Positions 59,110 to 64,000 of a stretch of 64,000 bases of DNA are shown in pieces; within the stretch, counting starts at the first letter, position 1, and every line of letters begins with the position of its first letter. This DNA comes from Nocardioides perillae (GTDB taxonomy: Bacteria > Actinomycetota > Actinomycetes > Propionibacteriales > Nocardioidaceae). The position numbers and the translations under genes are program-made. Location: NCBI RefSeq assembly GCF_013409425.1, contig NZ_JACCAC010000001.1, positions 1,612,001 to 1,676,000 of the forward strand, given 5' to 3'. Under the pieces are notes generated by a model that was given only the letters and a program-made list of their open reading frames with translations, was not told the origin of the DNA and made no database searches.

Positions 59110-59802
59110 TCAGCGCGGGCGGTCGGCGCCGGGCCCGGAGCCCCCCTCGCGGTCGTCCTCGCGGTCGTCGTCGGCCTCCTCGAGGTCGGCCCGCAGCGCG
59201 CGCAGCTCGGAGCGCAGGAAGTCGCGCGTGGCGACCTCGCCGAGCGCCATCCGCAGCGAGGCGACCTCGCGGGCGAGGAACTCCATGTCGGCGTGGGCGC
59301 GCGCGTTGGCCTGGCGGTCCTGCTCGGCGACCACCTTGTCGCGCTGCTCCTGTCGGTTCTGCGCGAGCAGGATCAGCGGCGCGGCGTAGGAGGCCTGCAG
59401 GCTCAGCATCAGCGTGAGGAAGATGAAGGGGTAGGCGTCGAACGCGGCGTCCTCGGGCGCCAGCGCGTTCCACGTGACCCACACGAGCACGAAGAGCGAC
59501 ATGTAGAGCAGGAACCGCGCCGTGCCCATGAACCGCGCGAACTGCTCGGCGAAGCTGCCGAAGGCGTCGGCGTCGTAGCTCGGGCGGCGCACCAGGCTGC
59601 GACGGGCCTCGCGCGGGGTGTCGAGCCGGCCGTCGGCCTGGCGTGCCTCCGGGCGTCGCTGCTCGGGCCGTCGCTGCTCGGGCCGTCGCTGCTCGGGACG
59701 GCGGGCGTCAGGACGGCGGGCGTCAGGACGGCGGGCGTCAGGACGGCGCTGGTCACGGCGGGGCTGGTCGCGGCGGGGCTGGTCGCGGCGGGGCTCAGAC
59801 AC
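59110..59802 (-). CDS. DUF1003 membrane protein with repeated N-terminal extension
   Basis: A 230-residue protein. Residues about 1-57 are basic repeats of five residues (RRDQP, RRPDA and RRPEQ classes) encoded by 15-bp tandem units. The DUF1003 part (about 72-190) has two membrane helices, FLLYMSLFVLVWVTWNAL and FIFLTLMLSLQASYAAPLILL, and then NRQEQRDKV and a coiled acidic C-terminus. Function unknown. It overlaps the MgtE-N/CBS gene by 8 bp, as in the Rv1232c neighbourhood. Confidence 0.88.
   Translation of the reverse strand: MSEPRRDQPRRDQPRRDQRRPDARRPDARRPDARRPEQRRPEQRRPEQRRPEARQADGRLDTPREARRSLVRRPSYDADAFGSFAEQFARFMGTARFLLYMSLFVLVWVTWNALAPEDAAFDAYPFIFLTLMLSLQASYAAPLILLAQNRQEQRDKVVAEQDRQANARAHADMEFLAREVASLRMALGEVATRDFLRSELRALRADLEEADDDREDDREGGSGPGADRPR
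59640..59796. repeat. 15-bp coding tandem repeats in the DUF1003 gene
   Basis: Three blocks of 15-bp units follow one another: CGTCGCTGCTCGGGC-type (about 59653-59700), CGGCGGGCGTCAGGA-type (about 59698-59745) and CGGCGGGGCTGGTCG-type (about 59757-59796). Each block is about three near-exact copies. In-frame length change would add or remove RRxxx units. Confidence 0.75.
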
Positions 59803-61093
59803 GCGGCACCCCCCGCGGCGGCGTCACGGGCACCGTGCGGGCGGCGCGCTCGCGCCAGCCCTCCGGCAGCATGTGGTCGAGCAGGTCGTCCACGGTCACG
59901 GCGCCGAGGAGTCGGCCCTCGTCGTCCACCACGGGCGCGGCCACGAGGTTGTAGGCCGCGAGGTGCGCGGCGACCTCGTCGATCGTCATCTCCGGGCGCA
60001 GCGGGTCGAGCGACTGGTCGAGCGCGGCGGCGACCAGCGTCGAGGGCGGCTCGCGCAGCAGGCGCTGGATGTGGGCGACGCCCAGCAGCCGCCCGGTCGG
60101 CGGCTCGAGCGGCTGGCGGCAGACGTAGACGAGGGCGGCCAGCGACGTGGTGAGGTCGGGGTTGCGCACGTGCGCGAGCGCGTCGGCGACCGTGGCGTCG
60201 GGGCCGAGGATCACCGGCTCCGGCGTCATCATCGCGCCGGCGGTCTGCTCCTCGTAGGACATCAGCCGGCGGACGTCGGCGGCGTCGTCGGGCTCCATCA
60301 GCCCGAGCAGCTGCGCCGCCGTCTCCGGCGGCAGCCCGGCGATCAGGTCGGCCGCGTCGTCGGCCGACATCTCCTCCAGCACGTCGGCGGCGCGCTCGGA
60401 GTCGAGGTGCTCGAGGATCTCGACCTGGTCCTCCTCGGGCAGCTCCTCGAGCACGTCGGCGAGCCGCTCGTCGTCGAGGGCGGCGACGACCGCCGTACGC
60501 CGCTCGAGGGGGAGGTCGTGGATCATGCTCGCCGCGTCGGCCGGGCGCAGCTCGTTGAGCGCGGCCACGAGCTGCACGGCCGGCTGGGTCTCCTCGCGCC
60601 GGGTGAGGCCCTCGACGTCGCGCCACTCGACCACGTGGGTCTGGCCCTTGCGCCGGAAGCCGCGGCCGGCCTCGCGGGCGGCGACGCGGCTGAGGTACCA
60701 GTCGCGGGTGCGCGCCTGCTCCATCGCCACGTCGTAGACGGTGCCGGTCACGCGCTCGGCGTCGCTGCCCTCGCCCACGCGCACCGAGACCTCGCGGTCG
60801 AGCAGCTGACCCACGACCAGGGTCTCGGTCGGCCGCTGCTCGAAGCGGCGCATGTTCAGCAGGCCGGTCGTGTGCACCTGCGCGCCGTCGATCGCGGTCA
60901 CCCGCGTCATCGGCACGAAGATCCGTCGGCGGCCGAAGACCTCCACCACCAAGCCGAGCACGCGCGGCTGGTCGGCCTCGGCGCGGATCGCCACCACGAC
61001 GTCGCGCACCTTGCCGACCTGGTCGCCCAGCGGGTCGAAGACCGGCAGGCCCACCAGCCGGGCGGCGTAGACACGGGCGGGGGCGTTGCTCAC
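59795..61093 (-). CDS. MgtE N-terminal/CBS protein without channel domain, with PRC-like N-terminus
   Basis: A 432-residue soluble protein. The N-terminus (VYAARLVGLPVFDPLGDQVGKVRDVVV) is PRC-barrel-like. The MgtE_N helical repeat follows (AALNELRPADAASMIHDL, LADVLEELPEEDQVEILEHL, AADVLEEMSADDAADLI, about 205-290), then a CBS pair (MTPEPVILGPDATVADAL and LVAAPVVDDEGRLLGAVTVDDLLDHML). The Mg2+ channel domain is absent. Mycobacterial Rv1232c has this architecture. It may sense Mg2+ or a nucleotide. Leaderless GTG 61093, 7 nt from TAGCGT. Confidence 0.9.
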   Translation of the reverse strand: MSNAPARVYAARLVGLPVFDPLGDQVGKVRDVVVAIRAEADQPRVLGLVVEVFGRRRIFVPMTRVTAIDGAQVHTTGLLNMRRFEQRPTETLVVGQLLDREVSVRVGEGSDAERVTGTVYDVAMEQARTRDWYLSRVAAREAGRGFRRKGQTHVVEWRDVEGLTRREETQPAVQLVAALNELRPADAASMIHDLPLERRTAVVAALDDERLADVLEELPEEDQVEILEHLDSERAADVLEEMSADDAADLIAGLPPETAAQLLGLMEPDDAADVRRLMSYEEQTAGAMMTPEPVILGPDATVADALAHVRNPDLTTSLAALVYVCRQPLEPPTGRLLGVAHIQRLLREPPSTLVAAALDQSLDPLRPEMTIDEVAAHLAAYNLVAAPVVDDEGRLLGAVTVDDLLDHMLPEGWRERAARTVPVTPPRGVPRV

Positions 61094-61100
61094 GGTTCGC

Positions 61101-61106
61101 ACGCTA
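61101..61106 (-). promoter_or_regulatory. Putative -10 (TAGCGT), leaderless MgtE-N/CBS gene
   Basis: Reverse-strand TAGCGT ends 7 nt before the GTG at 61093; its divergent partner at 61124-61129 is 17 bp away. Confidence 0.5.
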
Positions 61107-61123
61107 CCGGGCCGCAGGCGGCG

Positions 61124-61129
61124 TACGCT
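61124..61129 (+). promoter_or_regulatory. Putative -10 (TACGCT), leaderless lipoprotein gene
   Basis: TACGCT ends 7 nt before the ATG at 61137. Confidence 0.5.
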
Positions 61130-61136
61130 GGCCTGC

Positions 61137-61547
61137 ATGCGGACCCGCGTGCCGACCACCTCGCTGCTCCCCGCCGTCCTGGCGGGGCTGCTCCTCGCCG
61201 GGTGCGGTGGGGACGGCGCCAGCCAGGCCGGGGACGGTGCCGACGACGCCGTGCCGAGCGACGGGTCGAGCGTCGGGCAGAGCGCGAGCCCCGCTGCGCT
61301 GCCGCAGCCGCAGTGCTCCGAGGTGTGGGTGACCGGCGCGACGCTGCCGGCCGGCTACGAGCTCTGCTACGACGGCGAGGCCCGGGTGGCGCCCGACGGC
61401 GCCTACTGCGAGGTCGGCAAGCCGCTGGTGACGCACGCCGGCCGCTGGTGGGCCGTGCGGGGCGGTGAGGTGCAGGAGGCCACCACCGACGGCCGCCTCG
61501 TCGAGGACCCCGGCTACGCCGCGGACCTGCGGACCTGCCGCGGATGA
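61137..61547 (+). CDS. Small hypothetical lipoprotein
   Basis: A 136-residue lipoprotein: signal peptide with lipobox LLAGC (Cys 23), a Gly/Asp/Ser-rich spacer, then a compact domain with four cysteines (QCSEVW, ELCYDG, AYCEVGK, RTCRG), which probably form two disulfides outside the cell. I recognise no named family. Divergent from the MgtE-N/CBS gene. Confidence 0.78.
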   Translation: MRTRVPTTSLLPAVLAGLLLAGCGGDGASQAGDGADDAVPSDGSSVGQSASPAALPQPQCSEVWVTGATLPAGYELCYDGEARVAPDGAYCEVGKPLVTHAGRWWAVRGGEVQEATTDGRLVEDPGYAADLRTCRG

Positions 61548-61649: not shown

Positions 61650-63146
61650 GTGCCTCGCTCCACCTCCGCTGTCCTGCGTCACCGGGTCCGTGCCCGGGCC
61701 CGCTCCTGCGCCGCGGCGCTGCTCGCGGGCGGGCTCGTCGCCGCCGCGCTGAGCGCGCCCGTCACCGCGACCGCCGCCGCACCTGCCGCCGCACCTGCCG
61801 CCGTGGCGACCGCGCCGGCCGCCCTGGCCCCCTCGGCGCTGCGCGCGGCGGCCGTCTCGGCGCGAGCCCCGAAGCGCTACACGCCGCCGGTCGGCGTGCG
61901 CTTCAACGACCCGCTCGGCGGCCGCGACGCGCGCCGCAAGATCCTCGGTCACCTGATCCGCACGGTCGACTCGGTGCCGAGCCGCCAGGCGATCCGCATC
62001 GCGTCGTGGAACATCCGCAGCAACGACCTCGTCGACGCCCTGGTCCGCGCCCACCGCCGCGGTGTGTCCGTGCGCGTCGTCATCGACCGGCTCAACGCCA
62101 ATCCCGACAACCCCAACGAGGGCTTCGACCGACTTGCGCGCGCCCTCGCCGGCAGCCGCAACGGTTCTCGGCCGCCCGAGCTCCGTTCGGTGACGCAGCG
62201 ATGCGCTTCGGCCTGCCGCGGCCCGCGGGGCATCGCCCACGCCAAGTTCTTCCTCTTCTCCAAGGCCGGCAACGCGCGCTGGATCACGATGTTCGGCTCG
62301 GCCAACGCCACCGACCTCGCCGCCACGCACCAGTGGAACGACCTGTTCACCCTGCGCGACCGCCCGGGGCTCTACGAGCACTTCGAGCTGGTCTTCGACG
62401 AGATGGTTTCGGATCAGCACGCAACCCAGGGCTTCGTCACGGCCGACTTCGGGCCCTACCGCACGGCCTTCTACCCCTACCGCGACGAAGGCGCCGTGGG
62501 TGACCCGGTGCTGAACGAGCTGAACCGGACGCGGTGCGCGGGCGCCACCGGTGGTGCGGGCACGAAGGGCCGCACCCGCATCCGCATCGCCATGACCTCC
62601 TGGCACGGCGACCGCGGCATCGCGATCGCCGAGCGGCTGCGCCAGATGTTCGACCGCGGCTGCAACGTCAAGGTGGTCTACGCCGTCATGGGCAACGAGA
62701 TCCTGCGCATCATGCGCCGCGGCGGCCCCCGGCCGATCCCGCTGCGCCAGATCGTGCAGGACTTCGACTCCGACGGCGTCTACGACCGCTACCTGCACAT
62801 CAAGACGATGACGATCAGCGGCAACTACGACGGCGTCGGCGACGCCGAGGTCACCTTCAACGGCTCGGCGAACTGGACCCCCGTCGCGCTCGTCAGCGAC
62901 GAGGCCGGCATGCGCATCTTCGGCCGCGGCGTCCGCGCGCAGTACGAGCAGTGGGTCGACCGGCTCTACGCCAACCCGCCCTACAACCCGGGTGGCGCCG
63001 GGGGCAGCGCGGGCGGGGCGGGTCGCACCGTCGCCGGTCGCACCACCGTGACCAGCCCTGCCCACGCCGGTCTCGCCCCTGCCGAGGTCGAGCAGCTGGC
63101 CCGGGCCCGCGGCGTCGACCCCTACCGCGAGGTGCAGGTCAACTGA
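61650..63146 (+). CDS. Secreted phospholipase D-like protein, HKD variant with Ser for Asp
   Basis: A 498-residue exported protein with a signal peptide (about residues 1-43) and an Ala/Pro spacer. Two PLD half-domains are seen: HAKFFLFS (His 197) with FGSANAT, and HIKTMTIS (His 383) with FNGSANWT. In both HxKx4D motifs the Asp is Ser, a variant also found in the actinobacterial branch with HxKFFLFS. A DQ/FDSDGVYDRY segment and six-plus cysteines suit an extracellular enzyme. Substrate and activity are uncertain. GGGAG lies before the GTG at 61650; the TAGCCT near 61562 suggests a leader of about 80 nt. Confidence 0.85.
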   Translation: MPRSTSAVLRHRVRARARSCAAALLAGGLVAAALSAPVTATAAAPAAAPAAVATAPAALAPSALRAAAVSARAPKRYTPPVGVRFNDPLGGRDARRKILGHLIRTVDSVPSRQAIRIASWNIRSNDLVDALVRAHRRGVSVRVVIDRLNANPDNPNEGFDRLARALAGSRNGSRPPELRSVTQRCASACRGPRGIAHAKFFLFSKAGNARWITMFGSANATDLAATHQWNDLFTLRDRPGLYEHFELVFDEMVSDQHATQGFVTADFGPYRTAFYPYRDEGAVGDPVLNELNRTRCAGATGGAGTKGRTRIRIAMTSWHGDRGIAIAERLRQMFDRGCNVKVVYAVMGNEILRIMRRGGPRPIPLRQIVQDFDSDGVYDRYLHIKTMTISGNYDGVGDAEVTFNGSANWTPVALVSDEAGMRIFGRGVRAQYEQWVDRLYANPPYNPGGAGGSAGGAGRTVAGRTTVTSPAHAGLAPAEVEQLARARGVDPYREVQVN

Positions 63147-63163: not shown

Positions 63164-64000
63164 GTGCAGTTGGCGGTGCAGTCGGTGGGGCAGTCGGCGG
63201 GGACGTCGGCGCGACAGCTCGCCGTCCTGCTGACGGCGCTGCCGGCGCTCGTGCTGACCGGGCTCGCGGTGGTGCTCGCCCCCGGCGGGCCCGCCGGCGC
63301 CGCCACGACCGGAGGGGCCGCGACCGGCGCCGCCACGACCGGGGACGGCGACGCCTGTGCCGCGGTCGTCGCAGTGGTGGCCGACGGCTCGGGTGAGCGA
63401 CCCGCGGCCGGCGCCGCGGCAGGGGCGACGCCGACGGTGCTGCTGCGCGCACTCGCGGGAGCGCTTGCCGAGCGCCACGGTGCCCGGCTCGACGTACGCC
63501 GCGTCGGCGGCCGCACGCTCCCCGTCACCGCCCTGCTCGGCGGCCGGGTGCGGGCGGGCCGGGTGGACCGCCAGGCCAGCGCGGCCCGCGTGCGTCGCTG
63601 GCGCGAGGGCACCGACCGCACGACCACGGCGCTCGTCGCCACCACCCGCGCGCTCGCCGGCGACCGGGGGTGCCCCGACCGGCGCGTGCTCCTCGTGGGG
63701 CACGCCCAGGGGGCGGGCGCGGCCCACCGCGCCCTGCTCCGCCTCTCCGGCACCACCGCCGCCCGGCAGGTCGTCGGCGCGGTGCTGGTGGCCGACCCCG
63801 ACCGGCGGCGCGGCACGCGGGCGCTGCGCCGCGGCGCGCCCGCGGCCCCAGCCGCCGCCCGCGGTGTCGTCACCCGCCGCCTCGCCCCGGCCCGCGACGT
63901 GCCGGGCCCCACAGCGCGCACGGCCGCCTGGAGCGTCTGCGCCGCCCGAGACCTGGTCTGCGACCTGAGCGCCGTGGGCGCCCGCCGAGCCGTCGCGGCC
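63164..64000 (+). CDS. Cutinase-like exported protein lacking the catalytic Ser (truncated by window end)
   Basis: The first 279 codons of a secreted protein. After a hydrophobic segment (about residues 24-48) the mature part shows cutinase-family order: a CAAVVAVVADGSGE start (normally GTGE-like), VLLVGHAQGAGAAHRALL where the nucleophile elbow should be GxSxG but reads G-H-A-Q-G with Ala 181, and CAARDLVCDLSAVG matching the C-xx-x-D-xx-C disulfide/catalytic Asp region. The catalytic Ser is missing, so hydrolysis is unlikely. Several GTG starts fit (63164, 63173, 63182); 63164 is tentative. It follows the PLD-like stop by 17 bp. Confidence 0.7.
   Translation, partial: MQLAVQSVGQSAGTSARQLAVLLTALPALVLTGLAVVLAPGGPAGAATTGGAATGAATTGDGDACAAVVAVVADGSGERPAAGAAAGATPTVLLRALAGALAERHGARLDVRRVGGRTLPVTALLGGRVRAGRVDRQASAARVRRWREGTDRTTTALVATTRALAGDRGCPDRRVLLVGHAQGAGAAHRALLRLSGTTAARQVVGAVLVADPDRRRGTRALRRGAPAAPAAARGVVTRRLAPARDVPGPTARTAAWSVCAARDLVCDLSAVGARRAVAA

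Follow-up and report, generated by a model that had tools for sequence, protein, structure and literature searches.

The gene with a putative start at position 63164 on the forward strand of the analyzed Nocardioides perillae DNA (a stretch of 64,000 nt, bases 1612001-1676000 of the single-contig genome, hereafter the window) encodes a cutinase-like module with alanine in the place of the nucleophilic serine, and we consider it probable that this is a maintained pseudo-cutinase module and part of an exported cutinase-RCC1-EEP phosphodiesterase system. This judgment covers the module and the system, and the surface-glycopolymer substrate proposed below is graded separately. The catalytically dead cutinase envisaged in the preliminary description gains support from a conserved loss of the nucleophile, a loss of the catalytic His in most members and purifying selection in the relatives. 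The lipid- or wall-binding role that it suggested appears plausible but incomplete, as the cutinase-like module makes up only the N-terminal third of a 960-residue cutinase-RCC1-EEP protein.

The frame has a putative GTG start at 63164, and its in-window part (63164 to 64000, forward strand) comprises a hydrophobic N-terminal segment, which suggests that the protein is exported, and the cutinase-like domain. By reading the full-length gene beyond the window edge, where the preliminary description ended, we found that this module is fused to seven RCC1 repeats and an EEP domain. The stop ends at position 66046 in window numbering, approximately 2 kb past the window (L002:6165-9047), and a Pfam scan gave in one reading frame the order of Cutinase, seven RCC1 stretches, and Exo_endo_phos (EEP). 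The seven stretches matched PF00415 with 162.9 bits (cut-off 21.7), and the EEP domain, in which the catalytic residues are present, matched PF03372 with 41.9 bits (cut-off 24.5). A (TP)n run joins the cutinase-like domain to the propeller (L002:7091-7162, about 64090 to 64161 in window numbering), and this place is occupied in five fully read relatives by about 80 residues of another, Ig-like-looking stretch.

In the family alignment, the cutinase-like domain extends on the forward strand from 63347 through the window end at 64000 to about 64099, while the Pfam match itself lies at 63662 to 64051. It scored 38.7 bits against PF01083 in the genome search and 36.9 bits in the protein scan (curated cut-off 25.9), spans profile positions 73–170 of 173 only, that is, the C-terminal part of the profile, and was the one PF01083 match in the 3.6-Mb single-contig genome. 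The reading frame confirms that the elbow at 63698 to 63712 reads G-H-A-Q-G instead of the GYSQG expected of cutinases, with the Ala codon GCC at 63704 to 63706, and the protein therefore does not have the GxSxG elbow with its nucleophilic Ser. The downstream Cys-Asp-Cys region was also correctly described as retained: it reads VCAARDLVCD in frame, with the C-AAR-D-LV-C segment at 63938 to 63961 and the codon of the acid residue Asp at 63950 to 63952 (both forward strand). A catalytic-type His (AHRSY) is encoded at 64001 to 64003, just beyond the window end. Searching with the cutinase-like profile (A1) yielded 45 PDB sequence matches, with cutinase-like enzymes and 5w95 at the top. A structure model of the relative L003, for which the alignment consisted of L003 and the window row, was poor (mean pLDDT 39.4); this low-confidence model shows a fitting strand-elbow-helix order at the Ala, and Foldseek with the same model found Humicola cutinase and lysin B as the best matches at E values of 0.002–0.003, with no match reaching 0.001, in weak agreement with an alpha/beta-hydrolase fold. 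A family search labels the N. perillae protein a cutinase, which could mislead hunts for polyester-degrading enzymes.

To define the subfamily, a survey profile was built from six cutinase-like domains, and matches at E ≤ 0.001 were found in 48 of 215 genomes of the genus. Thirty of these, N. perillae included, matched at 1.4e-33 or better and were taken as subfamily members, and the other 18, with E values of 1.3e-22 or weaker, were left out. A 294-genome sample of the family added five genomes from three other genera (G266, G319, G282, G303, and G315; E 1.0e-43 or better), while no further member at that strength was found in a 393-genome sample of the class, in which the next match had an E value of 1.4e-23. 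In total, the cutinase-RCC1 part was found in 35 genomes, with RCC1 and the cutinase-like domain sharing one frame at 35 of 35 loci; L024, whose domain is that of L003, was dropped, and the outgroup rows L057–L059 stand outside the 35. Judged from these sequences, the subfamily is a conserved, probably exported protein of Nocardioides-type bacteria. Among the literature matches listed, no title or abstract dealt with such a protein or with a natural cutinase pseudoenzyme.

Comparison of the 35 distinct domains found Ala at the nucleophile position in 28 and Ser in seven (G004, G266, G212, G176, G319, G282, and G078), and the Ala variant is hence not a lone oddity of N. perillae. By contrast, among the matches listed, control cutinase domains without an RCC1 propeller carried Ser in 42/42 and Ala in 0/42, with loci that repeat the same place counted once and with L133, in which the scan gave no domain, uncounted. 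Fisher's test of Ala versus Ser in the subfamily and the controls gave 9e-15, a value that cannot be read as if the samples were independent, because the rows share kinship. This difference rules out chance or sequencing error as the family-wide cause. The acid Asp was found in all 35 domains, and so were four Cys, both glycines of the elbow, and the Ala that follows it. A His at the aligned column was retained in two of the Ala rows (N. perillae and G315) and in 5/7 Ser rows. The module keeps sequence features of the cutinase fold, but with the Ser nucleophile lost, and the His as well in most relatives, it would not be expected to work as a serine esterase of the classical kind. Some members may have retained esterase activity, because seven keep the Ser and five of these carry Asp and His too, forming a full triad. 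The subfamily thus presents a natural series, from the Ser-Asp-His triad through Ala with His to Ala without His, which would let the passage from a cutinase to a binding module be studied.

Compared with PF01083 cutinases, such as the yeast cutinase-like enzyme 7cc4 and the mycobacterial Rv3802c (5w95), the subfamily is alike in its profile score over the cut-off, the elbow G-x-x-Q-G-A, and the Cys-Asp-Cys segment with the four invariant Cys. It differs in the Ala nucleophile position of most members, the frequent loss of the His, a changed Arg on the N-terminal side, and the fusion to RCC1, with EEP also attached in 23 of 35 members.

The best tree requires at least four nucleophile changes, and by reading, its Ala groups are a 25-row clade and, separately, N. 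perillae, G303, and G315. A single origin of the Ala was set aside because four changes are needed on the best tree, though a single Ala clade was not rejected (p-AU 0.0577) and several inner branches are weak. The selective constraint was estimated from six close pairs, all Ala-bearing, in which dN/dS of the cutinase-like domain ranged from 0.135 to 0.277, compared with 0.132–0.369 for RCC1, 0.021–0.269 for EEP, and 0.199–0.376 for the PLD-like protein; in 6/6 pairs the value was higher than that of EEP and lower than that of PLD. The cutinase-like domain is therefore under purifying selection in these Ala-bearing pairs, which indicates that the dead module is kept in those lineages; this result covers six pairs among the relatives, and the N. 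perillae branch has no close relative.

The EEP domain is fused to cutinase-RCC1 at 23 of the 35 loci and is encoded by a separate downstream gene at the remaining 12. A frameshift considered for G009, where the frame stops before the EEP, was dropped, because a separate EEP gene is present there and at 11 further loci. The copies examined retain the EEP motifs (N/E/H/D-N/D/D-H), with one copy truncated by a contig end, and the 12 PDB matches of the EEP profile are putative EEP proteins, the mannosyl-6-phosphatase 4c1r, TDP2, and nocturnin. The family match and the catalytic residues liken the domain to these hydrolases. Unlike them, the cutinase-RCC1-linked EEP forms a subfamily, which at E 1e-20 was found in 13 of 246 sampled class genomes, all within the family of N. 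perillae (2/87 genera). Three more EEP paralogues belonging to this subfamily are present elsewhere in the N. perillae genome (G000:C1:3300077-3302098 and 2388463-2389173; L176, L177), two of them adjacent. In many relatives an additional stand-alone EEP gene precedes the PLD gene (for example L019:12377-13636 and L020:5855-7123); the L020 copy scored 24.3 bits in Pfam, slightly below the cut-off, and no such gene was seen at this place in the N. perillae locus.

Upstream of the cutinase-like gene, and ending 17 bases before it, lies a PLD-like gene (61650 to 63146, forward strand), whose product starts with an export-type segment, contains two HxK...GSAN halves, and matched PF13091 with 77.5 bits (cut-off 27). 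Identification as DISARM-type DrmC was rejected at 31.3 bits against an NCBIfam cut-off of 133. PLD homologues were found in 33 of the 35 loci, with none in L079 (a 5.4-kb contig) or L080 (12 kb read), and in G004 the gene takes a downstream position, not the usual upstream one. The 34 homologues compared, which include L089 from outside the 35 loci, all keep both His-x-Lys pairs, and most carry Ser or Asn in place of the motif Asp. In N. perillae both motif Asp are replaced by Ser, leaving no full HxK(x)4D motif. The earlier view that this gene lacks canonical residues thus holds for the two Asp but not for the two His and two Lys, and because the latter are kept, the PLD-like protein may well be active. 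The PLD profile found two PDB matches, Nuc 1byr and NucT 6ehi, both nucleases; the match to the endonuclease Nuc had an E value of 0.019 by sequence and 2e-6 by profile. The N. perillae-type PLD resembles these two enzymes in its profile matches and its HxK and GSxN motifs, and differs from them in having two halves per chain and, in most copies, Ser or Asn for the motif Asp.

The wider neighborhood is conserved as well, usually in the order of c2 (pointing away), often a small lipoprotein-like gene of cluster c8, PLD, cutinase-RCC1(-EEP), and c3. In the window, the c2 member is the flanking frame at 59795 to 61159 on the reverse strand (putative start), which we take to be an MgtE/CBS-type protein, and its cluster is present in 29/35 loci. 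The small gene at 61137 to 61547 (forward strand), upstream of the PLD gene, has a lipoprotein-type start (LLAGCGG) and no Pfam family; cluster c8 occupies the corresponding place in 17/35 loci, and its likeness to this gene, which was not in the set clustered, is by position and reading only. Cluster c3 lies downstream in 28/35 loci, and its N. perillae member matches LicD and methyltransferase models. The region downstream of the cutinase-RCC1-EEP gene (L002:9117-12091, about 66116 to 69090 in window numbering) holds this LicD/methyltransferase-type gene as well as one for a DUF6752 protein, which has a sulfotransferase match below threshold, and an acyl-CoA dehydrogenase gene is found further downstream. 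Some relatives have a family-2 glycosyltransferase, whose cluster c7 is present in 17/35 loci. In the corresponding locus of G021 (L178:5534-9241), PLD is followed by RCC1-EEP without the cutinase module, which indicates that the module is dispensable. At the apparently corresponding place in G111 (L179:6252-8276), an EEP domain forms a fusion with a type I phosphodiesterase domain (PF01663), and a LicD-type gene lies beside the fusion on the opposite strand. As far as sequences can tell, the recurring theme is one of predicted phosphodiester-cleaving folds with export-type starts, to which the putative pseudo-cutinase is an accessory absent from some relatives.

This arrangement suggests that an old enzyme has been reused as a binding module, and the pseudo-cutinase is most likely the binding or docking part of the exported phosphodiesterase system. 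The ligand of the dead module would be a lipid of the envelope, a glycan bearing esters, or a partner protein. The RCC1 propeller would provide the scaffold, and phosphodiester bonds in an extracellular substrate would be cleaved by the EEP and PLD proteins. Because of the LicD-type gene downstream, our best single guess from the neighborhood is that this substrate is perhaps a phosphodiester-linked surface glycopolymer, and a nucleic acid is possible. Only tentatively do we go further and propose a new class of pseudo-cutinases, stripped of the nucleophile repeatedly and serving as the recognition module of an exported EEP/PLD/RCC1 system that would remodel a Nocardioides-type surface phosphodiester glycopolymer. 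The conserved EEP/PLD/RCC1 neighborhood offers specific activities that can be tested for this uncharacterized system found in Nocardioides-type bacteria.

The choice of substrate separates the preferred reading from its two nearest alternatives, both of which share the dead module, so that the likelihoods given to them overlap with that of the preferred reading. In the first, the EEP and PLD proteins would form a secreted nuclease machine degrading nucleic acids outside the cell, and the pseudo-cutinase and the propeller would serve for attachment. The PLD profile matches, being Nuc and NucT alone, the presence of TDP2 and nocturnin among the EEP matches, and the retained PLD His/Lys and EEP catalytic residues all agree with it, whereas the downstream LicD/methyltransferase-type gene and the family-2 glycosyltransferase of some relatives fit a surface polymer better, and DNase I is absent from the 12 EEP profile matches; we regard it as rather unlikely. 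In the second, a secreted complex of PLD, a sphingomyelinase-type EEP, and a cutinase-derived lipid-binding module would act on phospholipids. The PLD, EEP, and cutinase folds each include phospholipid-acting members, but no lipid-acting enzyme was named among the EEP or PLD sequence matches, which makes this complex improbable.

A further alternative is that the Ala domain is still an active hydrolase of unusual mechanism, working through the kept Asp and His or through another residue. The invariant Asp and the His kept in the N. perillae protein speak for such activity, but 26 of the 28 Ala proteins lack His at the aligned column. The preliminary description had left room for a nucleophile elsewhere in the fold, and none emerged among the Ser and Thr: no other one is invariant in the 28 Ala rows, the best being a Ser in 23/28, and the Cys invariant in these rows are the same four as in the Ser rows. 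Moreover, the Arg found near the N-terminus of three Ser-bearing outgroup rows is Asp in 24/28 Ala rows. Continued hydrolysis by the Ala domain seems very unlikely. Least credible of all is a functionless module in which the Ala at 63704 reflects a sequencing error, or a recent decay, confined to this genome. One genome represents the species; on the tree it groups with the Ser-bearing G004, with weak support (47/55), and by reading its Ala counts among the separate changes. Against this, Ala is found in 27 other genomes, purifying selection acts on the domain in the Ala-bearing pairs, and the frame is long and intact in a single-contig genome.

The propeller part of the protein also has known counterparts. 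A passage of PMC9218822 presents BLIP-II as a secreted binder that inhibits beta-lactamase, and the N. perillae protein resembles such RCC1/BLIP-II propellers in having seven RCC1 stretches in a probably exported protein. It differs in that most blades, by reading, have a Cys pair and in being joined to a pseudo-cutinase, and no beta-lactamase link was seen for the propeller protein. A polymorphic-toxin reading received no support, the sole 'RCC1' passage in PMC3482391 referring to an unrelated name. A scan of named genomes gave five loci, of which four match from the propeller region onward only, and the whole architecture was found in L003 (Nocardioides sp.) alone, the domain of which is identical letter for letter to that of G194 of the same genus.
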